Source: Marinobacterium lutimaris (GTDB taxonomy: Bacteria > Pseudomonadota > Gammaproteobacteria > Pseudomonadales > Balneatricaceae). From it: 64,000 nt of DNA. The notes under the pieces were generated by a model. It had not been told where the DNA came from. It did no database searches and was given only the letters and a program-made list of their open reading frames with translations. A program made the translations under genes and the position numbers. The stretch is from assembly GCF_900108065.1 (NCBI RefSeq), contig NZ_FNVQ01000001.1, positions 124,001 through 188,000 of the forward strand. Reading direction: 5' to 3'. Position 1 is the stretch's first letter. Every line of letters starts with the position of its first letter. Shown here piece by piece: positions 11,025-27,696 of this stretch.

Positions 11025-11378
11025 TCAGTCTGCGATGGCGGCGGTCACGGTCATTTCAACCAGGATTTCAGGGCGCGCCATGCGCGCTTCAACACAGGCG
11101 CGGGCGGGTTTGGGCAGATCCGCAACCCAGGCATCCCAGACTTCATTCATCGCCGCGAAGTCTTTCATATCGCGGATATAGATGGTGACCGACAGGATAG
11201 AGGCGGTATTGCTGCCCGCTTCTTCCAGCAGTGCTTCGACTTTGCCCAGGCACTGGCGGGTCTGCTCGGCGATATCCCACTCCGCCTGGCCAGCCGTCTG
11301 GCCGCAGAGATAGACGGTGCCGTTGTGTTTGACGATGCGGCTCATACGGTCGGTGGAGTGGATACGTTCTATAGCCAT
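11025..11378 (-). CDS. RidA-family protein, copy 1
   Basis: This 117-residue protein is of the YjgF/YER057c/UK114 (RidA) superfamily. The [12 protein letters not shown] segment near residues 92-103 holds the Arg expected to contact the substrate carboxylate, and GQTAGQ and [19 protein letters not shown] are family hallmarks. RidA proteins hydrolyse reactive enamine/imine intermediates. It is divergent from dadA, whose flavoenzyme makes an imino acid, which fits that role. It is about 85% identical by eye to the protein at 13937-14290 (18 differences in 117). Confidence 0.9.
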
Positions 11379-11657
11379 AGGTTTGTCCTTTTCAGATCTA
11401 TCGGGCCTGTTGGGTGCTGATGAGCGCTTGCCATCAGCGCGCGTTTATACGCGATAGCGCAGCAATCTTTTGCATTTTTTATCGCGAAGAAAACAGATAC
11501 TACGTCAATTTTTGAATTTTTTATCACTGTTAAAATATATTTATGTAACGAATAATCTTGTTATTATTTTAAAATACAGAATAAAAAACCTGTAAAAATA
11601 AATTAATGCAGGTGATTATGTTTTTACAAAATAACTAATCTGTTTTTGAGGTGGGTC

Positions 11658-12914
11658 ATGGCGGTTCTGGTAATGGGAGCGGGCGTTGTTGGCGTAACCA
11701 GCGCATGGTATCTGGCTAAGGCGGGTCACGAGGTTACCGTGATTGACCGTCAGGTTGATGTGGCGTTGGAGACCAGCTACGCCAATGCCGGACAGATATC
11801 GCCGGGGTATTCCACTCCCTGGGCGGCGCCGGGTGTGCCGTTGAAAGCCGTTAAATGGATGATGCAGGATCTGGCTCCGCTGATGATCAGCGGCAAGGAG
11901 TTGGACCTGCAAACTCTCGGCTGGATGGGCAAAATGCTCTCCAACTGTAACGAGGCTGCCTACCGCGTCAACAAGGCGCGGATGCTGCGCGTCGCCGAGT
12001 ACAGCCGCGACTGCCTCAAAGCCCTGCGTAGCGAGATCGGTATCGAGTATGACAACCGCGCCCGTGGACTCACTCAGCTGTTCCGCAGCGAAAAGCAGAT
12101 TGAAGCGGTACAGCAGGATATGGCGGTGCTGGAAGAGTGTGGCGTGCCGTTTGAAGCGCTGAATGTCGACCAGATCGTCGAGTACGAACCGGCACTGGGC
12201 TATGTGAAAGACAAGCTGGTGGGCGGCCTGCGTCTGCCCGGCGATGAAACCGGCGACTGCTTCCTGTTCACCAACCGTCTGGCCAATGAATGCAAAAAGC
12301 TTGGCGTTAAGTTTGTGATGAAGACCGATATCCTCGGGCTCAATACCGAGGCGGGGCGTATCACCAGTGTATCCACCTCGCGTGGCAAGATGACAGCGGA
12401 TCACTACCTGCTGGCGCTGGGCAGCTATTCACGGCAGATGCTGGCCGGTATCGGCATCCAGGCGCCGGTCTACCCGATCAAGGGCTATTCGCTGACACTG
12501 CCGATCACTGATGCCGAGCACGCGCCGGTGTCCACGGTGATGGATGAAACCTACAAGGTGGCGGTGACCCGTCTTGGCGATCGTATCCGCGTCGGCGGCA
12601 CTGCCGAGATCGCCTCTTACAACAAGGAGCTGACCGAGAAACGTCGCCGCAATATCGAGTTTGTGGTCAGTGATCTGTTTCCGGGGGCGGGGGATCTGGA
12701 GCATGCCGAGTTCTGGGCCGGTCTGCGCCCCATGACGCCCGATGGCACGCCGATCCTGGGTGAAACGGCGCTCTCCAACCTGTTTCTGAATACGGGGCAC
12801 GGTACGCTGGGGTGGACCATGTCGCTGGGCTCGGCCAAGTTTGTGGCCGATGTGATCAGCCAGCGGCAGACCGATATCGACCCCGAAGGGTTATCGATCC
12901 GCCGTTACGCGTAA
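11658..12914 (+). CDS. dadA: D-amino acid dehydrogenase
   Basis: The 418-residue flavoprotein starts at ATG 11658 with GAGG six bases upstream; a TTG at 11646 is the less likely alternative. The FAD loop VMGAGVVGVTSAWYLAKAG opens the protein, followed by the DadA signatures ETSYANAGQISPGYSTPWAA and the C-terminal GTLGWTMSLGSAKFVADVI. DadA oxidises D-amino acids to 2-oxo acids at the membrane with a quinone acceptor. The gap to the divergent ridA is very AT-rich and probably holds both promoters. Alanine racemase (dadX) is not adjacent, so D-alanine catabolism is not assured. Confidence 0.92.
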   Translation: MAVLVMGAGVVGVTSAWYLAKAGHEVTVIDRQVDVALETSYANAGQISPGYSTPWAAPGVPLKAVKWMMQDLAPLMISGKELDLQTLGWMGKMLSNCNEAAYRVNKARMLRVAEYSRDCLKALRSEIGIEYDNRARGLTQLFRSEKQIEAVQQDMAVLEECGVPFEALNVDQIVEYEPALGYVKDKLVGGLRLPGDETGDCFLFTNRLANECKKLGVKFVMKTDILGLNTEAGRITSVSTSRGKMTADHYLLALGSYSRQMLAGIGIQAPVYPIKGYSLTLPITDAEHAPVSTVMDETYKVAVTRLGDRIRVGGTAEIASYNKELTEKRRRNIEFVVSDLFPGAGDLEHAEFWAGLRPMTPDGTPILGETALSNLFLNTGHGTLGWTMSLGSAKFVADVISQRQTDIDPEGLSIRRYA

Positions 12915-12968
12915 AGGAGTTTGCAGCGAGTTAGCAGTAGAGGGGCAGCTTTGTAATAGAAGCGCGGC

Positions 12969-13649
12969 TCAGAAGTAGAGCCGCAGCACGGCGTCCGCAA
13001 CACAGACGATTCGTTTGGAACCCTCTACCTCTACCTGAATGCGGTTGGCCATATCCAGGCTGCGCTTGCCCGGTTTCATCGACTTGAGCGTCGTGCGGGC
13101 GCGGATACGGCTGCCGCATTTCACCGGGTGCGGAAAGCGAACCTGGTCCAGTCCCAGGTTAACCACCATGCGTGCTTCCGGATAAGGCGGCTTGTCCGGA
13201 TTTACCGTGTCGGTCAGGTAGGGCAGCAGCGATAGCACCAGAAAGCCGTGAGCGATGGTATCGCCAAACGGCGATTCATCGCGGGCGCGCTGAGGATCGG
13301 TATGGATCCACTGCTGGTCGCCGGTAACGCTGGCGAAGCTGTCGATGCGTGCCTGGTCTACGGTCATCCAGTCACCGACAAATACTTCCTGTTCCAGCTT
13401 GTCCTGCCAGGTGCGATAAAAACTGATTACCTTGGGGTTCATCAGCCCCTGGAACGCCTGCTCATCCTCAGGTTCTGAAAACAGCTTAACCCGCGATACC
13501 CAGGAGTTGTTCAGCGTATTGTTGAGCGAGTGGCTGATAAAGTAAGTCAGCTGGCGCAGGTGTCCAGTGGAAGAGCTTTTCAGGTCCAACGCGGTGATGC
13601 GTGTCTTCAGTGACCTTTCTTTTTCTTTGAGAAACTCAATGACATCCAT
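12969..13649 (-). CDS. MaoC-like dehydratase-domain protein
   Basis: The C-terminal two thirds of this 226-residue protein is a hot-dog MaoC domain with the hydratase signature spread over WIHTDPQRARDES and FGDTIAHGF, which includes the catalytic Asp and His. About 85 N-terminal residues precede it and contain a Lys/Glu-rich start. This resembles R-specific enoyl-CoA hydratases and NodN-like proteins. It converges with dadA. No acyl-CoA genes are adjacent, so the pathway is unclear. Confidence 0.82.
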   Translation of the reverse strand: MDVIEFLKEKERSLKTRITALDLKSSSTGHLRQLTYFISHSLNNTLNNSWVSRVKLFSEPEDEQAFQGLMNPKVISFYRTWQDKLEQEVFVGDWMTVDQARIDSFASVTGDQQWIHTDPQRARDESPFGDTIAHGFLVLSLLPYLTDTVNPDKPPYPEARMVVNLGLDQVRFPHPVKCGSRIRARTTLKSMKPGKRSLDMANRIQVEVEGSKRIVCVADAVLRLYF

Positions 13650-13840
13650 CGTCAGGGCCTGCTTCTGGTAGTGCCGAGTGGGCGATCATAACACTGGGTC
13701 ATCCGGTTTTGAGCCTGAAGGTGGGCGACATCGGCCATGCAACCGGAAAATCGGCCTGCAACCGAGAGTTGCAGCCGGTAAAACCTTGTGATTCAAGCGG
13801 AAGGAGGAAAAGCAGGGTAACGCTATTTGCGCGAAAAGCG

Positions 13841-13868
13841 AACAGCACCGCCTTATGACGGTGCTGTT
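13841..13868 (-). terminator. Terminator of the ridA-ended amine oxidation operon
   Basis: AACAGCACCG and CGGTGCTGTT form a perfect ten-base stem with an eight-base loop, about 70 bases past the stop of ridA copy 2 on the minus strand. It is followed on that strand by CGCTTTTCGC. Position and strength suggest it ends the operon 22108-13937. Confidence 0.65.
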
Positions 13869-13936
13869 TGGGTGTTGTATCACTGCTATTTGGTGTTAAG
13901 CCGCGACACTACTGGCATTTGGAGGGGGAGCGTGCG

Positions 13937-14290
13937 TTAGTCAGCCAGGGCTGCAGTAACCGACATTTCCACCAGAACGATAGGGCGTGCCATGCGCGCT
14001 TCTACACAGGCGCGTGCGGGCTTGGCCCGATCAGCGAACCAGGCGTCCCAGACTTCATTCATAGCGGCAAAATCTTTCATATCACGGATATAGATGGTGA
14101 CAGAAAGAATGGAGTCGCTATTACTACCAGCTTCGTTCAGCAGCGTGTCAATTTTAGTCAGGCACTGGCGCGTCTGTTCTGCAATATCCCACTCCTCCTG
14201 GCCGGCGGTCTGGCCGCAGAGATAAACGGTACCATTGTGTTTAACGATACGGCTCAGACGGTCGGTGGTGTGAATGCGTTCTATAGTCAT
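13937..14290 (-). CDS. RidA-family protein, copy 2
   Basis: This 117-residue RidA protein is a close paralogue of the one at 11025-11378; the core [19 protein letters not shown] and [12 protein letters not shown] are identical. It is the last gene of a nine-gene operon containing two kinds of FAD amine oxidase. RidA would clear the imine/enamine products of those oxidases. The two copies lie less than 3 kb apart on the same strand, each next to a flavin amine oxidase locus, so they look like a recent duplication retained for local use. Confidence 0.9.
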
Positions 14291-14347
14291 TTTCTCTGAT
14301 TTCTCGGAGGTTTAGGTTTGCCGCCGGAATCGGTCCGGCAGCGCGAT

Positions 14348-15496
14348 TTAAAGCAGGGGGTGGGAGCTGAATTCGCTGCTTACGCCTGTATCGAAACGGT
14401 CGTAACGAAACGGCTCGATCGAATAGCTCAGTGGCTTGCCCTGAATAAGACGAGCCAGGGTTTCCCCGGTAACCGGTCCCATCTGGAAGCCGTGGGCGGA
14501 AAAGCCGAAAGCGTGAAAGGTATTGGGCTTGGACCCGGCTCCCAGTACCGGGATCTGATCCGGTGTGACGCCTTCAATACCGGCCCAGCTGCGGTTTATC
14601 CGCGCTTGGTTCATCAGTGGGAAGATGGTGCGCGCATTGTTGGCGCACTTGGCCAGTTCTGTTGTATTGACGCTGGCATAGTTGCGGTCAGGGTAGGCTT
14701 GACCTCGATAGCCGCCACCTACGAGCACAGTTCCGTTTTCGAACTGCTTGAACGAGAGTGGCCGGCTGGTTGCCCCAACAACGCCTTCCATAAAGATAGG
14801 CATGCGCTGTGTGATCAATAGCATGGGAGCCTGGGGCTGCAGGGGAATGTTGTCTCCCAGCAGTTCGGCGATTTTATGTCCCCAGGCGCCGGCGCAGTTG
14901 ACGATCACGCGTCCCGCAAAGCTCTGCTGCGCGGTGCTCACCTTCCAGCTGTCACCGTCTCTGGTTATGCCGGTCACGGTGCAATCCTCGACGATTCTGG
15001 CTCCCTGGGCAGTGGCTGCCCGAGCGAAGGCCGAGGTTGCCTTGTAGGGGATGGCGCTGCCATCTCCCTCGACGACAATACCACCGAGACAGTGCGGTGA
15101 GATGGCGGGCAGGAGGGAGCGTAACTGCTGTTGGTCGATCAGCTCTTCATGCTCAAAGCCAAGTGCCTGCACGCTGGCGACCCGCTTTTTAAGAGTGGCG
15201 ATATCCGCTTCGCTTTCGGCGACTTTGATCTGTCGTGATGCATGAAAGCCGGTATCGGCCTCAAGCCATTCGTCGAGCTGCGGCCAGATTTCGCTGGCGC
15301 GGCGGGATAGCGGGACCTCGGCAAGGTGTCGGCCCAGCCTGCGTACTCCCCCGGCGTTGACGCCGGAGGCGTGACGGGCAACGTGATCTTTCTCCAGTAC
15401 GATGCAGGAAACTCCATCCTTGGCGAGGTTCCAGGCCGTGGCACAGCCTTGAATACCGCCCCCAATGATAATGACGTCAGCGGTTTCAGTTTTCAT
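14348..15496 (-). CDS. FAD oxidoreductase, beta-type subunit of a three-part amine/opine dehydrogenase
   Basis: The 382-residue DAO-type flavoprotein begins with IIIGGGIQGCATAWNLAKDG and ends with the FAD-contacting HAFGFSAHGFQMGPVTGE. It matches HcnC, OoxB and the beta subunit of D-hydroxyproline dehydrogenase in size and style. Its start overlaps the stop of the upstream alpha-type subunit gene. In the known relatives this subunit carries out C-N oxidation and passes electrons to the FAD/Fe-S partner. The substrate (an opine, D-hydroxyproline, or another secondary or D-amine) cannot be chosen from sequence alone. Confidence 0.85.
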   Translation of the reverse strand: MKTETADVIIIGGGIQGCATAWNLAKDGVSCIVLEKDHVARHASGVNAGGVRRLGRHLAEVPLSRRASEIWPQLDEWLEADTGFHASRQIKVAESEADIATLKKRVASVQALGFEHEELIDQQQLRSLLPAISPHCLGGIVVEGDGSAIPYKATSAFARAATAQGARIVEDCTVTGITRDGDSWKVSTAQQSFAGRVIVNCAGAWGHKIAELLGDNIPLQPQAPMLLITQRMPIFMEGVVGATSRPLSFKQFENGTVLVGGGYRGQAYPDRNYASVNTTELAKCANNARTIFPLMNQARINRSWAGIEGVTPDQIPVLGAGSKPNTFHAFGFSAHGFQMGPVTGETLARLIQGKPLSYSIEPFRYDRFDTGVSSEFSSHPLL

Positions 15497-16871
15497 CTTT
15501 CAGGCTTGCCAGTTCGCTTAGATTAAGGGGTTTCACAGGTGCACGCAGGCGGTAGTAGCCGGTCTCTTCCACTGGGCGCTTGGTCAGTCGCGATAAGGTT
15601 TCCGATACGGTTATGCCGCATTGGCGACCCTGGCAGGGGCCCATCCCACAGCGGGTGAAGCTTTTGAGCTGGTTAGGGCCAAGGCATCCCTTCTCAGTCG
15701 CCGCTTTGAGTTCAGACAAGCGCACTTCTTCACAGCGGCAGATAACGGTTTCGCTCTCAGGTGGAGAGCGGAACTGCTCGGCAGGACGGTAGAGAACATC
15801 CAGAAATGGCCTGAATGCCAGTTCTTTATCGAGTGCCTTGCGGATGGGTTGGGCCCGGCTATCGCGCGCACTTGCGTCGAGGTTGCCGGAGAGGGATGCG
15901 ATCTGCAGCGCTGCCAGTCGGCCCCTGAGCGCGGCAGCAACCGCGCCGCCGATGCCGAGTCCGTCGCCGGCGATGAAGAGCCGCTCTTCGTTGCTCTGGC
16001 CCCAGGCGTCTGTTTCCGGTGTCCAGCAGAGTTGCTGATCGTTCCAGTGATGCTTGCAGCCGCTGGCCATGGCCAGGTTGACCTGAGGAATGACACCCTG
16101 ATGCAGGAACAGGTGGTCGGTATCAAGCTTATGCCGACCGCTTTTACCGCTGAAGCTGACTGCCGTTAGCTTTTGTTGGTCGTCGGCGATTGCTGCGATC
16201 TGATCCACATGTTTGTGGATGGTGACGCCGGCTGCCTTGATATCGCTGATCAGCTTCAAGCCTTTTTTCAGGTAGCTGCGTCCCGACCAGGCCGCACCGA
16301 TCTCTTTGGCTGCCGCAACATAGTTCCCGGATTCGGTGGTATCGAGGACCGCCTTGACGTTGACTCCGGCTTTAACGTACTGCCATACGATGAGGTATAG
16401 CAGGGGGCCGCAACCGGCAAAGACTGCGTCTTCAGCTGCCAGCCCCGAGTTCTTAAGTAGCGTTTGGGCGCCGCCCGCAGTCATTACACCGGGCAGTGTC
16501 CAGCCGGGTATCGGCATGGGGCGCTCCTGAGCGCCTGAGGCGATCAATACCCGGTCGGCGGAAACCGCCTGGGATTTTCCGGCGACCGAGTAGAATACCT
16601 CACCTTTGGGTTCGATCTGCCACGCGGTAGCACCGGTGATATGTTCGCACTGACTTGCTTTAAATGCTTCTAGCAGGGGGACGCCGGCCTGGTATTCGGG
16701 CCCGAGAATCTGCTTGTCGCTGAGTCGCTGGTGTCCAGCGTTGCGGTAAATCTGTCCGCCGCCGCGGGGTTGCTCGTCCAGAAGAAGGCAACTCAGGCCG
16801 AGGCCGCTTGCCTCTATCGCAGCCGACATGCCCGCGGGGCCAGCGCCGATGATCACCAGGTCATACTTCAT
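15486..16871 (-). CDS. FAD/NAD-type subunit with BFD-like Fe-S domain, alpha-type subunit of a three-part dehydrogenase
   Basis: The 461-residue protein has an N-terminal FAD loop (VIIGAGPAGMSAAIEASGLG), a second dinucleotide site (AVFAGCGPLLYLIVWQYV) and a C-terminal BFD-like [2Fe-2S] domain with CRCEEV and CGMGPCQGRQC. That layout is HcnB/OoxA. It overlaps the ferredoxin-like subunit gene upstream by about 11 bases and the beta-type subunit gene downstream, so the three are translationally coupled. In hydrogen cyanide synthase, opine oxidase and D-hydroxyproline dehydrogenase these subunits form one complex. Confidence 0.87.
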   Translation of the reverse strand: MKYDLVIIGAGPAGMSAAIEASGLGLSCLLLDEQPRGGGQIYRNAGHQRLSDKQILGPEYQAGVPLLEAFKASQCEHITGATAWQIEPKGEVFYSVAGKSQAVSADRVLIASGAQERPMPIPGWTLPGVMTAGGAQTLLKNSGLAAEDAVFAGCGPLLYLIVWQYVKAGVNVKAVLDTTESGNYVAAAKEIGAAWSGRSYLKKGLKLISDIKAAGVTIHKHVDQIAAIADDQQKLTAVSFSGKSGRHKLDTDHLFLHQGVIPQVNLAMASGCKHHWNDQQLCWTPETDAWGQSNEERLFIAGDGLGIGGAVAAALRGRLAALQIASLSGNLDASARDSRAQPIRKALDKELAFRPFLDVLYRPAEQFRSPPESETVICRCEEVRLSELKAATEKGCLGPNQLKSFTRCGMGPCQGRQCGITVSETLSRLTKRPVEETGYYRLRAPVKPLNLSELASLKDEN

Positions 16872-17187
16872 GGAAAAGCTCCTCCTGAGCTGTGGTTAAT
16901 TCACCGGGGCCTAATTGAGTTCTCACGTGCATCCCCTGGCGTACCTCCAGCATGCAGGCTTGCTGGTTGTTGATACCGTCGATTTCGACCAGGCATTCGA
17001 AACAGGCACCCATCAGGCAGAAAGGACCGCGAGGCACGCCTGATACCGGACTGGTGCGGCTTTGACGACGTTGTTGCAGCAACATAGCGGCTGCGACCGT
17101 GAAGCCCTCCGGAACCTCAATGGATTCACCGTCCAGCAGCAGGGTCACGAGCTTTGACTGGGGAGCATTACTGATATCTCGAAACAT
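16861..17187 (-). CDS. [2Fe-2S] ferredoxin-like small subunit of a three-part dehydrogenase
   Basis: This 108-residue protein has a beta-grasp fold with the cluster motif CLMGACFEC (C-x4-C-x2-C) near residues 52-60 and a fourth Cys in NNQQACMLEV. It matches HcnA and the gamma subunit of D-hydroxyproline dehydrogenase, and the N-terminal domain of sarcosine oxidase alpha. It lies four bases after the single-chain FAD oxidase gene and overlaps the next subunit. Its role is to relay electrons within the complex. Confidence 0.85.
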   Translation of the reverse strand: MFRDISNAPQSKLVTLLLDGESIEVPEGFTVAAAMLLQQRRQSRTSPVSGVPRGPFCLMGACFECLVEIDGINNQQACMLEVRQGMHVRTQLGPGELTTAQEELFHEV

Positions 17188-17190
17188 AAT

Positions 17191-18282
17191 TCACTCTTGA
17201 AACCGGTTAGCTGTGAATGCCTTCAGGTCAGGCTCCAGCTGTTGATTTTTTAACTGGACGCTGAGGCTCAGGGCGTGAGCAGCGGCAAGGGTAACGCCGC
17301 TGTGGCAGCTGAAAGCCCAGGCGTTATCCTTGTGCTCGTAAAGTGGGTAGCCATCTTTCGTCAGAACCCTTAAGGCGCCCCAGCCACGTACGATGCGGCT
17401 TTGACTCAGGCGGGGAATGATCCGGCAGGCACGCTCGGCCACAGCTGCCATTGCGCGTACATCCTGGCCGTCATCCAGGCCGACTGCCTCCTTGGTGTCG
17501 CCAAGTTGCAGGGAGCCTTCTGCGGTCTGACGGAGATAGTTCGATGGATGATTCAGTAGCCTTGGCAGTCGCTCGGTCACAAGAATCTGTCCCCGTTGCG
17601 GGAAAACACTTTGCTGGAGGCCAACCATGGGACCCAAGCGAGCGTTGTCCAGCCCGCAGGCCAGGATCAGGTTGCGGCAATGGAAGCGATCCTTTGCTGT
17701 TGTCAGCAGATATCCGTCTGCGTCGCGCTCTATCTGCTCGACACGGTGATCGCCAAGGTAGGTCCCGCTCTGGTTGATAAAGCCGGCGTGCAGCGCTCGC
17801 AGCAGCTGCAGAGGATTGGTATGGCCGTCATGGGGTGACCAGCTGCCACCAGGGATTGTCGGTCCCACCTCAGGTTCCAGCTCTCGCAGCTCGTTGTGGT
17901 CCAGCATCCGGTAAGAAAAGTCGCCGTCACTGCCGGCCTGCAGCTGTTGAAGCAGGGTCTGGCGCTGTTGCAAAGCATGATCATCCAGGCAGTAGTGCAC
18001 GCCGCCACGTTTCTCATACTGCACATCGATGCCGGTAACCTCTTTCAGTTCTTTGGCCAGCTGTGGCCATAGTTTGGCTGAGAGTCGTGTCCAGCGCGCG
18101 TATTCCGGAAAATCGATGCCTTTACTCTGTACCCATACCAGGCCGAAATTGCCGCGTGCTGCGCGAAAATCGCGGTCATGAGCATCCAGCAGCGTACATT
18201 TAAGCCCCTGCCGCGCCAGCCCGTAGCCGATGGCGGCGCCGACCACGCCTCCGCCGACGATCAGATATTCACTAGAGTTCAT
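17191..18282 (-). CDS. Single-chain DAO-family FAD oxidase
   Basis: The 363-residue protein has the FAD loop VGGGVVGAAIGYGLARQG and the C-terminal WAFSCHSGVTLAAAHA. It is distinct from the three-part enzyme downstream, so the operon carries two amine-oxidising flavoenzymes. It starts two bases after the second permease stop, with AAGGACA before the ATG. One reading is stepwise attack on a substrate with two C-N bonds; the other is that this enzyme handles the product of the first. No covalent-flavin Cys typical of monomeric sarcosine oxidase was identified with confidence. Confidence 0.83.
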   Translation of the reverse strand: MNSSEYLIVGGGVVGAAIGYGLARQGLKCTLLDAHDRDFRAARGNFGLVWVQSKGIDFPEYARWTRLSAKLWPQLAKELKEVTGIDVQYEKRGGVHYCLDDHALQQRQTLLQQLQAGSDGDFSYRMLDHNELRELEPEVGPTIPGGSWSPHDGHTNPLQLLRALHAGFINQSGTYLGDHRVEQIERDADGYLLTTAKDRFHCRNLILACGLDNARLGPMVGLQQSVFPQRGQILVTERLPRLLNHPSNYLRQTAEGSLQLGDTKEAVGLDDGQDVRAMAAVAERACRIIPRLSQSRIVRGWGALRVLTKDGYPLYEHKDNAWAFSCHSGVTLAAAHALSLSVQLKNQQLEPDLKAFTANRFQE

Positions 18283-18284
18283 GT

Positions 18285-19082
18285 TCAGTGTCCTTTGCCG
18301 ACCATGAGTCGCTCGAGGCCGAAGAACTTATCCAGTAGGGCCATCAAGATCAGCGTCATTAGAATCAACATGGCCGATACCGACGCGACGAGTGGATCGA
18401 TAGTCTCTTCAATGTGCAGATACATGCGTACCGGCAGGGTGGTGGTGCTTGGCGAGGCAAGGAAAACACTCATGGTCAGCTCATCGAAGCTGGTGATGAA
18501 TGCCAGTACCCAGCCGCTGGCGATACCGGGCAATAGCAAGGGGAGTGTGATTCGCTTAAATGTGGTCCAGTTACTGGCGCCGAGCGACTGAGCCGCATGT
18601 TCCAGAGTGGGATCTATACCGCTGGTGCTGGCCAGAACCAGGCGCAGGGCGTAGGGCATGATCATCAGCCCATGCGCCAGTACCAGGCCCAGATAGGTGC
18701 CGTTGATGTTGAGTTCCGAGAAAAAACGCAGGAAAGCTACACCAAGTACCAGGTGAGGGATCATCAACGGTGACAGCAGAAAGGCGTTGATAGCGCCACG
18801 GCCGGGAAAGCTCCAGCGCCCGATTGCGAGGGCCGCCGGTATGGCCAGCGCCAGTGCCAGAGTGGCAGACACAACGCCCAGCTCGAGGCTGAACCAGAAG
18901 GCTTCGATAAATTCCGGGCGTTCCAGTATCTCCTTAAACCAGCGGAACGAGGCGCCATCGAAAGGCATGGACAGGTAGCCTTTATCGGTAAAGGCTACCA
19001 GGCACACGACGACAAGCGGGGCGACCATGAAGATGCTGAACAGCGCGTGGAAAATGAGTGCTAGTGGGCTGTTACGCATCAT
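18285..19082 (-). CDS. ABC transporter inner-membrane permease (PotC-like)
   Basis: A 265-residue permease with six predicted spans and the EAA loop AAQSLGASNWTTFKRITLPL. The N-terminal PLALIFHALFSIFMVAPLVV and the terminal position of the gene match the PotC side of the spermidine/putrescine/opine class. It overlaps the first permease gene by four bases. Its role is import of the operon's amine-like substrate across the inner membrane. Confidence 0.88.
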   Translation of the reverse strand: MMRNSPLALIFHALFSIFMVAPLVVVCLVAFTDKGYLSMPFDGASFRWFKEILERPEFIEAFWFSLELGVVSATLALALAIPAALAIGRWSFPGRGAINAFLLSPLMIPHLVLGVAFLRFFSELNINGTYLGLVLAHGLMIMPYALRLVLASTSGIDPTLEHAAQSLGASNWTTFKRITLPLLLPGIASGWVLAFITSFDELTMSVFLASPSTTTLPVRMYLHIEETIDPLVASVSAMLILMTLILMALLDKFFGLERLMVGKGH

Positions 19083-19945
19083 GATTCAAATACCTGTGAA
19101 TATTTGCGTTCGAAAAAGCGGTTGTAGCCGGTGATGATCACGATATTGAGGATCAGCAACACCACGGCGAGAGAGGCACCCAGAGGCCAGTTTAGGCTGT
19201 GCAGGAACTCGTCATAGGCGGTGGTGGCGACGACCTTCAGACGACGACCGCCGATCATGGCAGGTGTGGCAAAGGCGGTAGCGGCGAGCGCGAATACGAT
19301 GACGCTGCCTGACAGAATGCCGGGGGTGATCTGAGGCAATACGATCCGGCGCATAACGGTGAACTGGCTGGCGCCGAGGGAGATGGCGGCGCGCTCGGTT
19401 TCGGGATCAAGCCGCTGCAAAGACGCCCAGACTGACAGCACCATGAATGGCACCAGCACGTGGACCAGGGCGATCAGCACGCCGGTCTGCGTATACATCA
19501 ATGACACTGGGCCATCGCTCAAGCCCAGGAACTGAATGGTTTCGCTGATAACCCCTTCGCGTCCGAAAATTACAGCCCAACCGAGGGTCCGTACCACGAC
19601 GGAGATCAGTAGAGGTCCCAGCGTCATCAGTAGAAAGATCCCTTTCCAGGGAGCGCGCATGCGGTTGAGGATGTAAGCCTCCGGTACGCCGATCAGCACG
19701 CAGAAAAAGGCGGTCAGCGCCGACATGACGAAGGTGCGCAGAAAAATCTCGTGAAAGTAGGGGTCGGTAAAAACCTCGATGTAGTTACTGACAACGAATT
19801 CATCCTGTACACCCAGCATCGGCTCAAAGCTGCGAAAGCTGAGTACCAGCGTCATTAGCATCGGCACGACGAGTAGAAGCGCGTAGGAGAGCAGAGCAGG
19901 GCCTGACAGGAGCCAGGGCGTGCGTTTGCTTTGCAGATCAGACAT
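19079..19945 (-). CDS. ABC transporter inner-membrane permease (PotB-like)
   Basis: The start is set at ATG 19943-19945 (MSDLQSKRT) because GAGGAG lies 10 bases upstream; a longer frame begins at a TTG at 19966. The 288-residue protein has about six spans and the EAA loop AAISLGASQFTVMRRIVLPQ. It overlaps the end of the ATPase gene by eight bases. It pairs with the PotC-like permease as the heterodimeric channel. Confidence 0.87.
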   Translation of the reverse strand: MSDLQSKRTPWLLSGPALLSYALLLVVPMLMTLVLSFRSFEPMLGVQDEFVVSNYIEVFTDPYFHEIFLRTFVMSALTAFFCVLIGVPEAYILNRMRAPWKGIFLLMTLGPLLISVVVRTLGWAVIFGREGVISETIQFLGLSDGPVSLMYTQTGVLIALVHVLVPFMVLSVWASLQRLDPETERAAISLGASQFTVMRRIVLPQITPGILSGSVIVFALAATAFATPAMIGGRRLKVVATTAYDEFLHSLNWPLGASLAVVLLILNIVIITGYNRFFERKYSQVFES

Positions 19946-20993
19946 GAGACGCGGGCTCCTCGGCAATGAGGCGCATATCCTGGCTGTCCCAGCTGAGGCC
20001 TACTGTTTCTCCTTCCTGAATTTCGTCATGCTTCTGGTTGTTGGATTCGTAGATCAGGAAGTCACCCAAAGGTGTCTGAACCTCGTAAATCCACTGGCTG
20101 CCGAGAAATACCCGGTTGGAGACCTTGCCGCTGATTTTCGGCGCGTCCGAGCAGAAGCGGATTTTTTCCGGGCGCAGTGCAAAGCGGGTATTGCTGCTGT
20201 CCGCCAGTTTGAGGTCGTCCACCGCAATGTGCTGGCCGCCAACCTGCAGGCGGCCATGCGAGACTCTGCCTTCGAAGGTGTTGGTCTTGCCAAGGAATGA
20301 GGATACAAAGTCGCTCTTGGGGTGTTCATACACATTGAACGGTTTGTCGATCTGTTCAATGCGGCCGCTTTGCATAACCGCAATCCGGTCACTGACGGCC
20401 AATGCTTCGGACTGGTCGTGAGTGACCATGATGGTGGTGGTGCCGACACGGCGCTGGATGTCGTGTAGCTCAAGCTGCATATCTTCGCGCAGTTTCGCAT
20501 CCAGGTTGGAGAGTGGCTCGTCCAGAAGAAGCAGATGCGGGTTGATAACCAGGGCGCGTGCCAGGGCAACGCGCTGTTGCTGCCCGCCCGACAGCTGGCG
20601 AGGGTAGCGCTCGATAAACAGCCCCAGATGAACCAGTTCCAGCGCCTCTCTGGCTCTCTGTAGCCGTTCATTTTTCCCCACTTTGCGCATTTCCAGCCCG
20701 AAGGCCACGTTTTCAAGCACCGTCATGTGAGGAAACAGGGCATATTTTTGGAATACGATCCCGAGTCCACGCTCGCTCGGCTTCATCGCAGTGATGTTCT
20801 TGCCATCGAGAACGATGCTGCCCGCAGTGGGATTGAGAAAGCCGGCGACCATCTGCAAAGTGGTCGTTTTACCGCATCCGGATGGGCCAAGCAGACTGAT
20901 GAACTCACCCTTTTCGACAGAGAGGCTGATGTTGTCGACGGCTACATACTCATCGAAATGCTTCGAGATATTGCTGAGCTGCAAATAAGACAT
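19938..20993 (-). CDS. ABC transporter ATPase (PotA-like)
   Basis: The 351-residue ATPase has Walker [19 protein letters not shown] (about 34-51), the signature [17 protein letters not shown], Walker [14 protein letters not shown] and the switch His in MVTHDQSEA. The C-terminal 110 residues are a TOBE-type beta domain ([10 protein letters not shown]), as in PotA/MalK importers. It is the first cytoplasmic component after the binding protein gene, separated by a strong hairpin (21022-21053) that would let the binding protein be made in excess. Confidence 0.92.
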
Positions 20994-21021
20994 AAGGCGA
21001 TCGTTACCTGATAAACAGTGG

Positions 21022-21053
21022 CCAGTTCCTGCCGAATCAGGCGCAGGAACTGG
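21022..21053 (-). other. Intercistronic hairpin between binding protein and ATPase genes
   Basis: CCAGTTCCTGC and GCAGGAACTGG form a perfect 11-base stem with a ten-base loop and no T-run. Hairpins in this place commonly protect the 3' end of the binding-protein message and lower downstream expression. Confidence 0.6.
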
Positions 21054-21076
21054 GGTCAGTGGCGTGAGTTGGCGGG

Positions 21077-22108
21077 TTATTCCACTTCGCGGGTCCAGCG
21101 TTTAGTCCAGTCTGCGCGATTTTCGTTGACGGTATCCCAGTCGATCGGTGTCAGTGATTTGAGCGACTCACCATAGGGAAGGGTGGAGGCGAGCTGTGGA
21201 TCAAGCTCGATATTTTTGTTGGTCGGTCCCCAGGCTTTTTCTGCTGCCAGAATTGCCTGTACTTCATCGGAAACCAGGTAAGCGATCAGCTTCTGGCTCA
21301 TCTCTGGCATATCACTACCGGTCACCGGACAGACGGTGGTCATTAGCGAAGCTGCCCCCTCTTTTGGATAAGCGAACTTGACCGGGAACCCTGTATCGGC
21401 GAGAGATTTGACGCGACCACTGCCCCAGGTAGACATGACGATTTCGCCACTCTGGAACAGCTCGGACATCTTGCCGGAGGAGGGCTCGTAAGTGAGTACG
21501 TTGGGACCGATACGCTCTTTGAAGGCGTCAAAGCCAGGATCGATATCTTTCTCGCTACCGCCGTTAATCCGCGCTTCCATCACCAGCGTGATGATGCCGT
21601 ATCCGTTGGAAATGGGCGGAACTGACAGGCGCTGGTTGTAGCGCGGATCGGCCAGGTCATCCCAGGAGTTTGGTTCATCCCAGCCCTGTTCCGCGAAGTA
21701 CTCGGTGTTGTAGGCGATACCGGTGGCGATGATCCCAAGGCCGATCGCCTTGTCCTGGTTCAGGCGTGCCAGAGGTACTACCTGGTCAAAGGTTTCCTCG
21801 GCGACGGGCTGGCACAGTCCCATCGAAATAGCCTGGAATACAGGACCTTCATCGATCATCGCTACATCGATTTCCGGCTTGTTACGCTGCGCCTGTAGTT
21901 TGGCAACGGTGGCGGCCGAGTTACCGGCTACGTACTGCACCTTGATGCCGTTGGCTTCTTCAAAGGCGGGGAGAATCCGATCCCTGAAAAGGTCTTCACT
22001 GGAGCCGCCGTAGCCGGCGAAATAAAGCGTGTCTTCAGCCTGCGCCACGCCGGTGGCGAGCAGCGTTCCCATGGCGATAGCTGTGATAAGCGACTTCTTG
22101 TCCTGCAT
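21077..22108 (-). CDS. ABC transporter periplasmic binding protein (PotD-like)
   Basis: The start is placed at ATG 22106-22108, with AGGAT upstream, which gives a clean signal peptide (KKSLITAIAMGTLLATGVAQA, cut before EDTLYF). An upstream in-frame start at 22276 would put 56 unlikely residues before it. The mature 320-residue protein is a PotD/opine-binding type, with the N-terminal YFAGYGGSSEDLFRDRILPA. It is the promoter-proximal gene of the nine-gene operon, and it binds the unknown amine-like substrate in the periplasm. Confidence 0.88.
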   Translation of the reverse strand: MQDKKSLITAIAMGTLLATGVAQAEDTLYFAGYGGSSEDLFRDRILPAFEEANGIKVQYVAGNSAATVAKLQAQRNKPEIDVAMIDEGPVFQAISMGLCQPVAEETFDQVVPLARLNQDKAIGLGIIATGIAYNTEYFAEQGWDEPNSWDDLADPRYNQRLSVPPISNGYGIITLVMEARINGGSEKDIDPGFDAFKERIGPNVLTYEPSSGKMSELFQSGEIVMSTWGSGRVKSLADTGFPVKFAYPKEGAASLMTTVCPVTGSDMPEMSQKLIAYLVSDEVQAILAAEKAWGPTNKNIELDPQLASTLPYGESLKSLTPIDWDTVNENRADWTKRWTREVE

Positions 22109-22203
22109 CTTTTCAATCCTGTGCTTAGTGCGTAAAGAGACGTTGGATAGCGGTGAGTCGCCTTTGATACTATCAAACACTTTGTGATTGACAATAAGTT
22201 CTT

Positions 22204-22220
22204 CATAACCCAATGTTATG
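22204..22220. promoter_or_regulatory. LysR-type T-N11-A box
   Basis: CATAAC and GTTATG are perfect inverted arms around CCAAT, with T at 22206 and A at 22218 giving the T-N11-A pattern of LysR boxes. The site lies between the divergent binding-protein and LysR genes, about 95 bases from each start. Confidence 0.6.
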
Positions 22221-22313
22221 TTTGATTCTGGTGCTTTTATTTGTCTTATTGGCTCATATTGGTGCGTATTGCGCACAAAAGCCGTGATCTTGACCTCTTT
22301 TGGAGAGCTTTAA

Positions 22314-23231
22314 ATGACCCCACGTCAAATAGAGGCATTTCGGGAAGTGGTGTTGCAGGGAAGTTTGACTGCAGCGGCGCTTACGCTGAATATCTCGCAA
22401 CCAGCGGTCAGTCGAATGATCAGGGATATGACCGAAGAGGTCGGCTTTGCACTGTTTGAAAGACATAAGGGGCGGATGCGGCCTACAGGGCCCGCATTGA
22501 TGCTGTTCCAGGAGGTTGAGCGCTCATTTGTGGGTCTGGATCAGATTCGCCAGGCGGCAGTCCAGATTCAGCAGTTGGAGTCGGGGCGGCTGAGAGTGGC
22601 GGCGATGCCGGTGCTTGGTAGCTTTCTGTTACCTGAGGCATCTGACCGGTTTCTCGGCGCTAATCCAACGGTTGCGTTCCATATTGAGGTGCATTCATCG
22701 CCGATGATCGTACAGCTGCTTCGGGAGCAGCAGGTCGATATCGGCTTTGTGCAATCCGACATGGTTCCGCTTTATGTGGCTCCAGAACGCCGTATTCATT
22801 TTGATGGACCCTGTGTGTGTGCTTTTCATCGCGATCATCCCTTTGCAGAGAAAGAGGTGATCAGTCTTGGCGACCTGGACGGAGAATCGGTGATTGAGCT
22901 CAACAAGCAAAGCGTTATCAACCGTAAATTGAATACGCTGTGCAACAACCACGGCGTAAACATCGGTCGCCGCCTGCAGGTTTCCTGGTTTCAGCTGGCT
23001 TGCAACTTTGTGGCTCGCGGGCACGGGGTCGCGATCGTTGACCTGTTGAGCGCCACGTACTATCGGGATCCGAACTTTGTTTACCGGCCTATCCAGTTTC
23101 CGATCAACTATGAATTTGATCTGATGTACCCGCCGATCTCCTCAGTTAACCCCCTGGCCAAGTCGTTCGTGGAGGAGGTGATTTCGCTGATGCCGAGAGA
23201 AGTTTCTGTGCAGCGAGTGGAGGGATATTGA
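22314..23231 (+). CDS. LysR-family regulator, divergent from the amine oxidation operon
   Basis: The 305-residue protein begins with the helix-turn-helix (AFREVVLQGSLTAAALTLNI, then SQPAVSRMIRDM) and continues into a type 2 periplasmic-binding effector domain. It resembles NocR/OccR-type opine regulators and ArgP-like proteins in length. Divergent placement and the T-N11-A box between argue that it controls the operon running from 22108 to 13937. The inducer is presumably the imported substrate. Confidence 0.88.
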   Translation: MTPRQIEAFREVVLQGSLTAAALTLNISQPAVSRMIRDMTEEVGFALFERHKGRMRPTGPALMLFQEVERSFVGLDQIRQAAVQIQQLESGRLRVAAMPVLGSFLLPEASDRFLGANPTVAFHIEVHSSPMIVQLLREQQVDIGFVQSDMVPLYVAPERRIHFDGPCVCAFHRDHPFAEKEVISLGDLDGESVIELNKQSVINRKLNTLCNNHGVNIGRRLQVSWFQLACNFVARGHGVAIVDLLSATYYRDPNFVYRPIQFPINYEFDLMYPPISSVNPLAKSFVEEVISLMPREVSVQRVEGY

Positions 23232-23256
23232 TCCAGTGTTATGGGCGGGGAGTGAA

Positions 23257-23281
23257 TTCTGGCCGGCGGGGCCGGCCAGAA
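23257..23281. terminator. Bidirectional terminator between LysR and fdhA
   Basis: TTCTGGCCGGC and GCCGGCCAGAA form a perfect 11-base stem with a GGG loop between the convergent LysR and fdhA genes. A second hairpin, AACAGCAC with GTGCTGTT, follows at 23285-23312. Confidence 0.6.
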
Positions 23282-23321
23282 CGGAACAGCACCACTGAAG
23301 AGCAGTGCTGTTGAGTCGCTA

Positions 23322-24518
23322 TCAGGCCGCGACAGTTCCGTGCGGATCGATAACGAATTTCTTCGCTGCGCCACCGTCGAAGTCGGCGTAGCCGTTCGGT
23401 GCCTGATCCAGGTTGATCATCTTCACGTTCACCGCGTCAGCGATCTTGATCTTATCGAACAGGATCGCCTGCATCAGCGGGCGGTGGTACTTCATGACCG
23501 GGCACTGGCCGGTGTGGAAGGAGTGGGACTTGGCCCAGCCCAGGCCGAAGCGCATGCTCAGTGCGCCGTGCTTGGCGGCTTCGTCAACGGCGCCCGGATC
23601 TTCGGTAACGTACAGGCCGGGGATACCGATCTGGCCACCGGCGCGGGTGTACTGCATGGCGGAGTTCAGTACGGTAGCCGGAGCTTCCTTACCGTGGTTG
23701 CAGCCACAGGCGTGTGCTTCGAAGCCTACGCAGTCAACGAAGGCGTCAACTTCACGCTCGCCCAGGATCGCTTCCAGCTTGTCAGCCATGTCGCCGTCTT
23801 CGGTCAGGTCGATGGTTTCACAACCGAAGCTGCGAGCCTGCTTCAGGCGCTCTTCGTTCATGTCACCTACAATGACACAGGCAGCGCCCAGCAGGTGAGC
23901 AGAAGCCGCTGCGGCCAGGCCTACAGGGCCGGCGCCGGCGATGTAAACGGTGGAACCCGGGCCTACGCCCGCGGTGACACAGCCGTGGAAGCCGGTCGGC
24001 AGGATGTCGGACAGCAGGGTCAGATCCTTGATCTTCTCCAGTGCCTGGTCCTTGTCCGGGAATTTCAGCAGGTTGAAGTCAGCGTAAGGCACCATGACGT
24101 ATTCCGCCTGGCCACCGACCCAGCCGCCCATGTCGACGTAGCCGTATGCGGCACCCGGGCGCGCCGGGTTTACGTTCAGGCAGATACCGGTGTTGCCTTC
24201 TTTACAGTTGCGGCAGCGGCCGCAGGCGATGTTGAACGGTACAGACACGATATCGCCGACGCTGAGGAATTCTACGTCGCGACCGCATTCGATGATCTGA
24301 CCGGTGATTTCGTGGCCCAGAACCAGGCCTGAGGGGGCTGTAGTACGGCCGCGAACCATGTGCTGGTCGGAACCGCAGATGTTAGTGGTGATGACTTTCA
24401 GGATGACACCGTGGTCACACTTGCGCTGGCCGATGGCCAGTTCCGGGAAAGCGATGGACTCAACGGCGACCTTGCCTGGTTCCTTGTATACGACGCCCCG
24501 GTTGCTTGCATTACTCAT
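23322..24518 (-). CDS. fdhA: Glutathione-independent formaldehyde dehydrogenase
   Basis: The 398-residue zinc dehydrogenase has the catalytic zinc ligands Cys48 (TNICGSDQHM), His of LVLGHEITG and Asp of SDILPTGFHG, the structural-zinc set CGRCRNCKEGNTGIC, and the NAD loop IAGAGPVGLAAAASAHLLGA. This pattern and length match Pseudomonas putida formaldehyde dehydrogenase, which needs no glutathione and holds NAD tightly. In the betaine pathway it oxidises formaldehyde released by demethylation. It is divergent from sdaA across a 281-base control region. Confidence 0.93.
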   Translation of the reverse strand: MSNASNRGVVYKEPGKVAVESIAFPELAIGQRKCDHGVILKVITTNICGSDQHMVRGRTTAPSGLVLGHEITGQIIECGRDVEFLSVGDIVSVPFNIACGRCRNCKEGNTGICLNVNPARPGAAYGYVDMGGWVGGQAEYVMVPYADFNLLKFPDKDQALEKIKDLTLLSDILPTGFHGCVTAGVGPGSTVYIAGAGPVGLAAAASAHLLGAACVIVGDMNEERLKQARSFGCETIDLTEDGDMADKLEAILGEREVDAFVDCVGFEAHACGCNHGKEAPATVLNSAMQYTRAGGQIGIPGLYVTEDPGAVDEAAKHGALSMRFGLGWAKSHSFHTGQCPVMKYHRPLMQAILFDKIKIADAVNVKMINLDQAPNGYADFDGGAAKKFVIDPHGTVAA

Positions 24519-24557
24519 GTAGAGGTCTCCACTTGCGTTATTGTTTTTGTGTAGTTG

Positions 24558-24570
24558 TAGGGTAATTCCG
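24558..24570. promoter_or_regulatory. 13-base sequence shared with the gbdR upstream region
   Basis: TAGGGTAATTCCG occurs here, about 45 bases before the fdhA start, and again at 26373-26385 upstream of gbdR. Beside it lies an inverted repeat, TTCCA (24571-24575) and TGGAA (24582-24586). A shared regulator such as GbdR is one reading. Confidence 0.35.
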
Positions 24571-24630
24571 TTCCATAGGATTGGAATAGATGCACCCTAC
24601 GCCCCGGGGTATAGCACAACATGTTTAATT

Positions 24631-24662
24631 GAGACACCCATATGTCTCTGCGAGACATGGCG
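24631..24662. promoter_or_regulatory. GAGACA repeats and CGCCATGTC motif in the fdhA-sdaA gap
   Basis: GAGACA occurs at 24631 and 24652, exactly 21 bases apart, with an inverted TGTCTC at 24643. Overlapping it on the minus strand is CGCCATGTC (24654-24662), which also appears upstream of the DUF5943-dgc operon and the BCCT gene. A 21-base spacing of direct half-sites is typical of AraC-family operators. Confidence 0.45.
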
Positions 24663-24799
24663 GTCGATACGACACCTGAAGGCGTCGTTATGTGACATGC
24701 CGAGGTTTCAGGTCGCCCAGATAATGGCGCTTCGAATAACGATTCAGCCATAACAATTCAGTAATACCCAGCAGCAGGCCAGGCGCCTCGGAGTGAGTC

Positions 24800-26197
24800 A
24801 TGAGTATCAGTGTGTTTGATCTGTTCAAGATCGGGGTCGGCCCCTCCAGTTCCCACACCGTAGGTCCGATGCGGGCGGCGCTTACTTTTGTCGAGCAGCT
24901 TGAAGCCGCCGGCGTGCGTGACCAGGTGAAGCGCGTGCAGGTGGAGCTGTTCGGCTCGCTGAGTGCTACCGGTGTTGGCCACGGCACCGACAAGGCGACG
25001 CTGGTGGGGCTGATGGGTAACTCACCGGATACGATCGATCCGCGTGTGATCGAACCGGCGGTCAAGGCGGTCTGGGAGACAGGCTTTATGACCCTGGCCG
25101 GCGGGGCTGGCATTGAGTTCGACTGGAACCGCGACATGCTGTTCATCGATGAGGTACTGCCGTACCACCCCAACGCCATGCGCCTGACTGCTTACGGCAG
25201 TGAGGGTGTGCTGTTCGAGAACACCTACTACTCCATCGGCGGCGGCTTCGTGCTGGATGAAAACGAAGCCACCGCTTCGGCGCACCTGGTACCTCAGGTT
25301 GCCGTACCTTACGACTTTAATAGCGCGGAAGAGCTGCTCAAGCTGTGTCGTGAAAACAACCTGCGTATCAGCGAACTGATGCTGGAAAACGAAAAGGTCT
25401 GGCGTGACGAACCGGCGATTCGTGCCGGTATCGACAGCATCTGGAAGGTGATGCAGGAGTGTATCTCCAACGGTCTGGAAAACGAGGGCATCCTGCCGGG
25501 CGGTCTGAAAGTACGCCGTCGTGCGCCGGCGCTGTATCGTTCACTGAAAGAAGCTACCGCCGGCAACGTGATCAGCTCCACGCTGAGCGCCATGGACTGG
25601 GTGAACCTCTACGCGCTGGCCGTGAACGAAGAGAACGCGGCCGGCGGTCGCATGGTTACCGCGCCCACTAATGGTGCAGCGGGTATCGTGCCGGCAGTGC
25701 TGATGTACTACATGCACTTCAAGGATCAGGCCACCGATGAAGACGTGGTGAACTTCTGCCTGGCGGCTGCTGCGATCGGTGCACTGTGCAAGAAGAATGC
25801 TTCCATCTCTGGTGCCGAAGTGGGTTGCCAGGGTGAAGTAGGTTCCGCCTGCGCCATGGCGGCGGCTGGTTTGACCGAAGTGCTCGGCGGTAGCCCGGCC
25901 CAGGTCGAAAACGCCGCAGAGATCGCGCTGGAGCATAATCTCGGTCTGACCTGCGACCCGGTTGCTGGTCTGGTTCAGGTACCCTGCATCGAGCGCAACG
26001 CGATTGCGGCGATGAAAGCGATCAACGCCGCCCAGATGGCGCTGCGCGGAGACGGCGAACACTTTGTCTCCCTGGATAAGGTCATCAAGACCATGCGCGA
26101 TACGGGGCGCGATATGCAGGACAAATACAAGGAAACCTCCCGTGGCGGTCTCGCTATCAACGCTATCGAGGTAGGGGTCAACGCAGTCGAGTGTTGA
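24800..26197 (+). CDS. sdaA: L-serine ammonia-lyase (single-chain, Fe-S type)
   Basis: The 465-residue protein starts [20 protein letters not shown], the N-terminal signature of the family. Cys residues expected to hold the [4Fe-4S] cluster are in [20 protein letters not shown] and [18 protein letters not shown]. It converts L-serine to pyruvate and ammonia. In glycine betaine users it closes the route: glycine made by demethylation is turned to serine by GlyA and then to pyruvate. The location beside fdhA and gbdR matches the Pseudomonas arrangement. Confidence 0.94.
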
Positions 26198-26208
26198 TTT
26201 GAAAAATG

Positions 26209-26255
26209 TTTTCGGGATTAGCTGATTTAACGGTCAAAATCGGCTGTCCCGAAAC
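26209..26255 (+). terminator. Long hairpin after sdaA
   Basis: TTTCGGGA (26210-26217) pairs with TCCCGAAA (26247-26254), and inside it AGCTGATTT pairs with AAATCGGCT with one wobble. No T-run follows, so this may act in message stability or as a processed 3' end instead of a classic terminator. Confidence 0.45.
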
Positions 26256-26372
26256 AGCGCATCCCTGTAACAAAAAGGTGCAAAAAACGTCATATTTCCG
26301 GTCGCGTTTTGTATAAATTCAGCTATAGTGCGCAAGTCTCTAGGGCTGATGCCGTATGGGTTTGCGGGGAAT

Positions 26373-26385
26373 TAGGGTAATTCCG
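26373..26385. promoter_or_regulatory. Palindrome upstream of gbdR
   Basis: GGAATTA and TAATTCC face each other around GGG at 26368-26384. The right part is the TAGGGTAATTCCG also found before fdhA. It lies about 110 bases before the chosen gbdR start. Confidence 0.35.
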
Positions 26386-26494
26386 CCGCATCTATTAATA
26401 CATGCGACATCTGTTCTCAGAGCGACCCAACGATAAGTATAAAAAGGCACATCTCTTGCTGTATGTGCCGCATAGTAAAAATGGGGTAGCGCAA

Positions 26495-27643: not shown

Positions 27644-27666
27644 TCGGGTGCTGCGGTTCCGGCAGA

Positions 27667-27696
27667 AAGCCGTGTCCTTCGGGGCGCGGCTTTTTT
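27667..27696 (+). terminator. Rho-independent terminator of gbdR
   Basis: AAGCCGTGTCC and GGGCGCGGCTT form an 11-base stem with a TTCG tetraloop and run into TTTTTT. It lies 24 bases past the gbdR stop. Confidence 0.85.

Follow-up and report, generated by a model that had tools for sequence, protein, structure and literature searches.

The 64,000-nucleotide stretch of Marinobacterium lutimaris DNA analysed here (the window) carries a nine-gene operon on the minus strand and, divergently orientated to it, a gene encoding a LysR-type regulator. Quite probably, this cassette serves opine catabolism and is of the OdhB1-C-A-B2 kind, in which alternative catalytic (beta) subunits share one pair of alpha and gamma subunits. 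The operon is real and conserved, and its homology and gene order place it as one more OdhB1-C-A-B2 opine dehydrogenase system, a kind that has already been described.

Gene content and organisation of the operon

The nine minus-strand genes run from 22108 to 13937 and the LysR gene covers 22314–23231. All ten are open reading frames with matching Pfam kinds, which agrees with the preliminary description of this DNA, made from the letters alone. Identities listed below refer to the genome G824, which we take to be Bradyrhizobium strain USDA110 (the matching genes are read from the minus strand there, in keeping with the "bll" locus names of that strain); the comparisons with the B. japonicum subunits BjOdhB1 and BjOdhB2 rest on this assumption.

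21077–22108 (start set at 22108), minus strand: periplasmic solute-binding protein (SBP), SBP_bac_8/6 by Pfam; 50% identity to the Bradyrhizobium SBP; structure model with a predicted local distance difference test score (pLDDT) of 91
19938–20993, minus strand: ATPase of an ATP-binding cassette (ABC) importer with TOBE_2 domain (Pfam); 55% identity to the Bradyrhizobium counterpart
19079–19966, minus strand: importer permease in PotB position (Pfam); 54% identity to the Bradyrhizobium counterpart
18285–19082, minus strand: importer permease in PotC position (Pfam); 59% identity to the Bradyrhizobium counterpart
17191–18282, minus strand: putative beta-1 catalytic subunit (B1), OdhB1-like DAO protein, 363 amino acids; 42% identity to BjOdhB1, 24% to BjOdhB2
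16861–17187, minus strand: putative gamma subunit (C), OdhC-like [2Fe-2S] protein, Fer2_4 (PF13510), 108 amino acids; C-X4-C-X2-C-X12-C from residue 57
15486–16871, minus strand: putative alpha subunit (A), OdhA-like protein of the flavin adenine dinucleotide (FAD)/nicotinamide adenine dinucleotide (NAD) type, 461 amino acids, with C-terminal SO_alpha_A3 region (Pfam); 47% identity to the Bradyrhizobium alpha subunit
14348–15496, minus strand: putative beta-2 catalytic subunit (B2), OdhB2-like DAO protein, 382 amino acids; 46% identity to BjOdhB2, 25% to BjOdhB1
13937–14290, minus strand: RidA-family protein (PF01042, 103 bits, cut-off 27.3), presumed imine/enamine hydrolase
22314–23231, plus strand: divergent LysR-type regulator (Pfam); 35% identity to the LysR adjoining the Bradyrhizobium operon

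With 22108 as the SBP start, six of the eight gene junctions overlap or leave at most 3 base pairs (bp) between the genes. The overlaps amount to 29 (listed TTG start), 4, 11, and 11 bp and the narrow gaps to 2 and 3 bp; wider gaps are located 3' of the SBP gene (83 bp) and ahead of the RidA gene (57 bp). A putative complex of the HcnABC/OoxAB type, as named in the preliminary description, is encoded. The putative gamma subunit contains the [2Fe-2S] motif C-X4-C-X2-C-X11~12-C in its X12 form. For a second [2Fe-2S] motif expected in alpha (C-X-C-X15~20-C-X4-C), the cysteines are present and spaced as in the Bradyrhizobium alpha subunit (L182), but the middle gap of both proteins is 32 and lies outside the range of 15–20. 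Both beta subunits possess the R-X-W motif related to flavin mononucleotide (FMN) (R299-W301, R302-W304), which was found in all 53 B1 and all 89 B2 proteins of the fetched clusters.

The importer resembles PotABCD in its general kind, but by the NCBIfam cut-offs it is no polyamine importer. The equivalog models for PotA, PotB, PotC, and PotD scored 352.9, 156.5, 156.9, and 36.6 bits with cut-offs of 482, 348, 326, and 582 bits, respectively, and the ATPase narrowly missed the wider potA subfamily model (351.4 of 355.6 bits). The operon RidA matches PF01042 above its cut-off; it also matched three Rid models of NCBIfam, but scored below their curated cut-offs.

Pairing of the beta subunits

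Judged by their genomic contexts and homology, the 363- and 382-amino-acid DAO proteins are both beta subunits of one type of heteromeric enzyme, and each can be the sole beta subunit of a predicted trimer. This assignment is made because each occurs without the other beside the gamma and alpha genes, because they match BjOdhB1 and BjOdhB2, respectively, and because the source genome holds one alpha gene (a single full-length match; the next matches are partial and weak, E-value 4.6e-9 or worse). It replaces the earlier view of two oxidases of different types, one of them a single-chain enzyme of 363 amino acids.

The search for beta-1 homologues covered 57 genomes, including the source genome, and yielded close homologues in nine other genomes, all of the same family (42–48% identity, E ≤7.8e-80). 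In all nine of these relatives, the order is 363-gamma-alpha with no 382-amino-acid gene in the operon, followed by RidA in five cases; one of the nine, G032, has a separate gamma-alpha-382 operon adjoining it. Eleven such B1-C-A clusters were found overall, nine of which are those of the family relatives. For beta-2, 80 named loci with the 382-amino-acid family (the best 80 of 420) were fetched and typed with corrected gene starts, "no B1" meaning no match of at least 120 bits to the window B1 in the right place. The order B1-C-A-B2 is present in 32 of the 80 loci; 21 have the whole importer upstream, and 15 of those also have RidA directly downstream. C-A-B2 with no B1 detected was found in 39 of the 80 loci (37 continuing with RidA), one locus holding both kinds. 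Ten of the 80 could not be typed because of contig edges or because the locus contained no alpha gene. The 382-amino-acid family is sparse, with 5 of 369 drawn genomes in the class (E 1e-60) and 20 of 398 in the phylum (E 1e-70), the source genome included.

Trees calculated with a quick method have long branches and few columns, so the following placements are uncertain. The window B1 is nearest to B1 proteins of two-beta operons, and the window alpha is likewise nearest to two-beta operons, within a wider set that includes operons fed by a tripartite ATP-independent periplasmic (TRAP) importer. B2 stands at the fork of the two-beta and TRAP-fed groups and is by path length nearer to the latter. 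The operon RidA groups as sister to the other RidA of its own genus, inside the TRAP-fed group, and may for this reason have been swapped locally.

The Bradyrhizobium counterpart

All ten genes of the window cassette are present in the same order in G824 (LysR / SBP-ATPase-PermB-PermC-B1-C-A-B2-RidA). The identity between the nine operon genes spans 33–59%, with 41% for gamma and 33% for RidA, and each window beta is closer to its own counterpart than to the other one (B1 42% versus 24%, B2 46% versus 25%). Homologues of the 382-amino-acid protein (E ≤1e-60) occur in 160 of the 265 genomes of the genus of G620. Annotated copies of the whole layout are located on plasmids of Thioclava, Paracoccus, and Burkholderia multivorans; the copy in Palleronia ends without RidA, and that of Azospirillum lipoferum is rearranged. 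The two-beta operon is therefore widespread.

The enzyme genes of B. japonicum USDA110 (OdhB1-C-A-B2, bll7193–bll7190) were described in 2015 by Watanabe and colleagues as a flavin-containing opine dehydrogenase (PMC4575208). In that work, each beta subunit assembles with the common alpha and gamma subunits to AB1C or AB2C, no complex containing both betas was found, and both trimers oxidise octopine in vitro, not nopaline (PMC4575208). The system is thus not an undescribed one, as had been supposed: the order of its enzyme genes was published in 2015 (PMC4575208) and the ten-gene layout is present in G824. The literature search covered part of the literature by titles and the beginnings of abstracts, and among the matches listed no description of the ten-gene layout was found, except for the four enzyme genes in PMC4575208. 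The preliminary description had let its novelty depend on there being no homologues of the same gene order with a proven substrate. This has largely been overtaken because the ten-gene homologue of Bradyrhizobium has published enzymes that oxidise octopine in vitro (PMC4575208), while the physiological substrate is unproven.

Substrate and proposed mechanism

An opine of the octopine (pyruvate-derived) family is the best single guess for the substrate, although we rate it slightly below an even chance. Three lines of evidence point to opines: the in vitro octopine activity of the homologues, a gene cluster on the tumour-inducing (Ti) plasmid pTiS4 of Allorhizobium ampelinum S4, and arginine genes in the neighbourhood of related operons. 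The opine-like secondary amine named as a candidate in the preliminary description is thus supported as the probable substrate. On pTiS4, an importer-B1-C-A set with LysR adjoins traR. Tumours of strain S4 contain vitopine and rideopine (PMC8554961, PMC10410297). Of the opine regions of the plasmid, the one near T-DNA3 is assigned to vitopine and another, of 40 kb, to rideopine (PMC8554961). As for arginine, a TRAP-fed B1-C-A-RidA operon (L022:2401-15285) is located between astA, an aldehyde dehydrogenase gene, astB, and a second astA of the arginine succinyltransferase pathway, and genes of the same pathway lie within 10 kb of a B2-type operon (L079). Weak AstD aldehyde dehydrogenase matches (25–33%) were left out of this count.

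According to the proposed mechanism, the ABC importer would bring an N-carboxyalkyl amino acid, which is a secondary-amine dicarboxylate, into the cell. Either beta-1 or beta-2 would dock on the one alpha-gamma pair and oxidise the C-N bond with FAD; the electrons would pass via FMN to the iron–sulphur centres and on to the respiratory chain. The resulting imine would split into an amino acid and a 2-oxo acid, a hydrolysis presumably accelerated by RidA. Most likely, the two betas serve the same or sister substrates (e.g., diastereomers or different amino-acid halves) and not successive steps. In Motiliproteus coralliicola, a B1-type and a B2-type TRAP-fed operon are arranged back to back (L047 / L026 of G032). 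The TRAP binding proteins of the two operons share 80% identity, so that both dehydrogenases are most likely supplied with almost the same ligand; across loci, the binding proteins of B1-type and B2-type operons are 51–82% identical.

Several observations weigh against an opine dehydrogenase or, more narrowly, against octopine. Octopine is a poor substrate of the published enzymes, with a Km of 19.5 mM for AB2C and 4.8 mM for AB1C, and the activity of AB1C is very low (kcat/Km about 180-fold lower), so that the authors consider a physiological role possibly limited to AB2C (PMC4575208). The traR-side cluster of pTiS4 is either the vitopine or the rideopine region and is not assignable to one of them with confidence; for this reason, our estimate for the octopine family was lowered from an even chance to the level given above. 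Arginine genes were found near 2 of the 105 loci scanned, which is a hint only, and none was seen adjoining the window cassette. The fold neighbours of the binding protein have diverse ligands (spermidine, hexose phosphates, iron, agropinic acid, and gamma-aminobutyric acid), and an identity of 41–47% to characterised subunits suffices for the kind of enzyme, not for its substrate. The R-X-W motif is not diagnostic, as the single-chain glycine oxidase 1ryi_A (B. subtilis type) has R-F-W at the aligned place.

The structural neighbours of beta-1 also count on this side and lead to the alternative favoured by the preliminary description, in which a single-chain 363-amino-acid DAO and a separate trimer (108, 461, and 382 amino acids) act one after the other on two C-N bonds of the same substrate. 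Among solved proteins, single-chain glycine oxidases are closest to beta-1 in sequence and in fold; in the fold comparison of its model (pLDDT 87.5), the B chain of L-proline dehydrogenase ranks tenth. Beta-2 is closest to 1y56_B, chain B of an entry for L-proline dehydrogenase, and the 39 loci with gamma, alpha, and the 382-amino-acid gene but no 363-amino-acid gene also count in favour of this alternative. However, the 363-amino-acid gene accompanies gamma and alpha in the 11 clusters with no 382-amino-acid gene in the operon, its counterpart BjOdhB1 assembles with alpha and gamma, and octopine is a substrate common to the two published trimers (PMC4575208). The single-chain assignment was rejected on the gene order in relatives, although the fold and sequence neighbours (glycine oxidases) pointed in the opposite direction, and stepwise oxidation is considered improbable.

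The same enzyme might instead act on an N-methyl or N-alkyl amino acid tied to the neighbouring choline/betaine genes (fdhA, gbcAB, gbdR, and others). In its favour, the cassette adjoins fdhA and the genes of the betaine pathway, the solved proteins nearest to beta-2 include sarcosine oxidase beta chains, and the operon of L124 has in its vicinity a zinc-dehydrogenase gene with 30% identity to fdhA. The chance of this alternative is nevertheless small: fdhA, sdaA, and gbdR are also grouped in congeners without the cassette (L200, L202), for which reason the betaine genes seem to be neighbours merely by chance of where the cassette is inserted, and no betaine genes were found beside five annotated two-beta operons (whose gene tables are incomplete). 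In catabolic operons for D-hydroxyproline, an epimerase and downstream deaminase and aldehyde dehydrogenase genes accompany the trimer. The ten cassette genes include no epimerase, deaminase, or semialdehyde/aldehyde dehydrogenase gene, and the nearby dadA, which might suggest D-amino acid metabolism, stands with its RidA in the same order in congeners lacking the cassette; a D-hydroxyproline (or D-amino acid) dehydrogenase operon is thus very improbable, despite the alpha-beta-gamma build shared with D-hydroxyproline dehydrogenase (PMC4575208). The least credible alternative is a hydrogen cyanide synthase (HcnABC) that has one additional beta subunit. It belongs to the same enzyme superfamily (PMC4575208), but both window betas pair with opine dehydrogenase betas at 42–46% (HcnC itself was outside this comparison) and are accompanied by a dedicated importer, RidA, and LysR. 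In favour of this alternative, hcnABC has the gene order gamma-alpha-beta, as do gamma, alpha, and beta-2 here.

Returning to the opine dehydrogenase with interchangeable betas, we consider it possible, though unlikely, that it is a two-headed enzyme for opines of marine animals. The betas would swap on one alpha-gamma pair, one importer would serve two stereoisomers or amino-acid variants, and dedicated versions of the same pathway would be encoded by the TRAP-fed operons with one beta that occur in Oceanospirillaceae and Roseobacteraceae. Candidate substrates would be octopine, alanopine, and strombine from molluscs, corals, and other invertebrates. If so, the operon would represent a sink for fermentation end-products of marine invertebrates, of which no description was found among the literature matches listed. 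Should the substrate prove to be a marine opine, there would be a bacterial route for degrading a waste product of animal anaerobic metabolism, and the operon would serve as its genomic marker.

Regulatory signals

22205–22219: LysR-type box ATAAC-N5-GTTAT (T-N11-A), perfect, single copy in the 64 kb
13839–13870: terminator-like hairpin at the operon 3' end, with GAACAGCACC at 13840 within it

LysR would turn on the operon via the T-N11-A box. This box had been noticed before, and the search bore it out: none of 100 shuffles of the window yields one. Of 27 homologous spacers between LysR and SBP genes, 23 contain a copy with at most two mismatches, the G824 spacer among them, versus 2.65 expected from mononucleotide shuffles (each spacer taken with 150 bp on both sides; the loci are related and hence not independent). 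Just downstream of the box lies a promoter-like match (22194-22167, minus strand), the one site found in a scan for which shuffles gave a mean of 4.6, i.e., fewer than in the shuffles. The ten-letter sequence GAACAGCACC is located at both cassette ends (13840 and 23284), and two further copies are present in the window at 51616 and 45225, one per strand.

Insertion site and neighbouring genes

13853–23306: cassette (nine-gene operon and LysR), 9,454 bp, absent from the same site in the congener G003

The nine-gene operon and LysR behave as one unit at this site, as had been proposed for the operon with its regulator, because the whole stretch is cleanly missing from the same site in G003. There, window positions 11025-13852 align with 8950-6119 of L200 and 23307-28952 with 6108-488; the flanks meet 10 bp apart and are about 90–91% identical to those of the window. 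The operon can thus come or go as one cassette. In the congeners G005 and G006, fdhA also lies about 210 bp from maoC. The maoC-fdhA spacer may be an insertion hotspot, since that of G002 holds a different 7-kb catabolic set (L203:6736-13842) with IclR, TctC, GFO/IDH/MocA, a permease, a short-chain dehydrogenase/reductase, and NIPSNAP. The congeners G001, G004, and G007 are uninformative on the site because the dadA and/or fdhA marker fell below the threshold used. A close beta-1 homologue is absent from all seven congeners (best E 1.5e-17, 29% identity). The base composition does not indicate foreign DNA (G+C content 0.567 in the cassette, 0.568 and 0.571 in the flanks), so gain in M. lutimaris versus loss in the congeners is judged from the distribution alone.

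The source bacterium belongs to a mostly marine family. At 11025-13649, a second RidA gene (11025-11378, product 84% identical to the operon RidA), dadA, and a maoC-like gene adjoin the cassette; they were discarded as parts of the system, as the same order is present in four congeners lacking the cassette (L200-L203). On the other side, 23322-56493 forms a choline/glycine-betaine catabolic island with fdhA, sdaA, gbdR, etfA, a gene with electron-transfer flavoprotein domain, a BCCT transporter gene, gbcA, gbcB, betA, and betB, as well as dgcA/dgcB-like genes. Elsewhere in the genome (G000:C11:12338-13522), a second glutathione-independent formaldehyde dehydrogenase-like gene is 90% identical to the window fdhA. 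Across the loci, only transporters and LysR recur widely among the neighbours, a few other families recurring in up to six genera. A mandelate racemase-like gene beside L049 was rejected as part of the system, other loci giving 24–27% matches only.

Comparison with known systems

The supposedly undescribed system moves into a named family whose biochemistry has been started, and the pairing of its subunits is corrected. The system of Bradyrhizobium USDA110 has the same beta1-gamma-alpha-beta2 gene order and, in G824, also the importer, RidA, and divergent LysR; it differs in sequence (33–59% identity) and in a RidA that the tree places in another lineage. The single-beta enzymes OdhB-C-A of Pseudomonas putida and NoxB-A / OoxB-A of Agrobacterium likewise combine one beta with gamma and alpha and have ABC transporter genes nearby (PMC4575208). 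They differ in having only that one beta and in acting on nopaline or octopine, the likeness being drawn from their description.

The cluster of pTiS4 shares LysR, SBP, ATPase, two permeases, B1, C, and A in this order with the window (seven genes 41–59% identical, LysR 32%), but contains neither B2 nor RidA. The TRAP-fed sister operons of marine Oceanospirillaceae, Roseobacteraceae, and others occur in two forms, LysR / DctQMP-C-A-B2-RidA and LysR / DctQMP-B1-C-A(-RidA), a DctP gene being present in 36 of 37 C-A-B2-RidA loci and in 7 of 11 B1-C-A loci. They have homologous enzyme subunits, RidA, and LysR in common with the window operon, whereas a TRAP importer takes the place of the ABC importer and each operon encodes one beta subunit.

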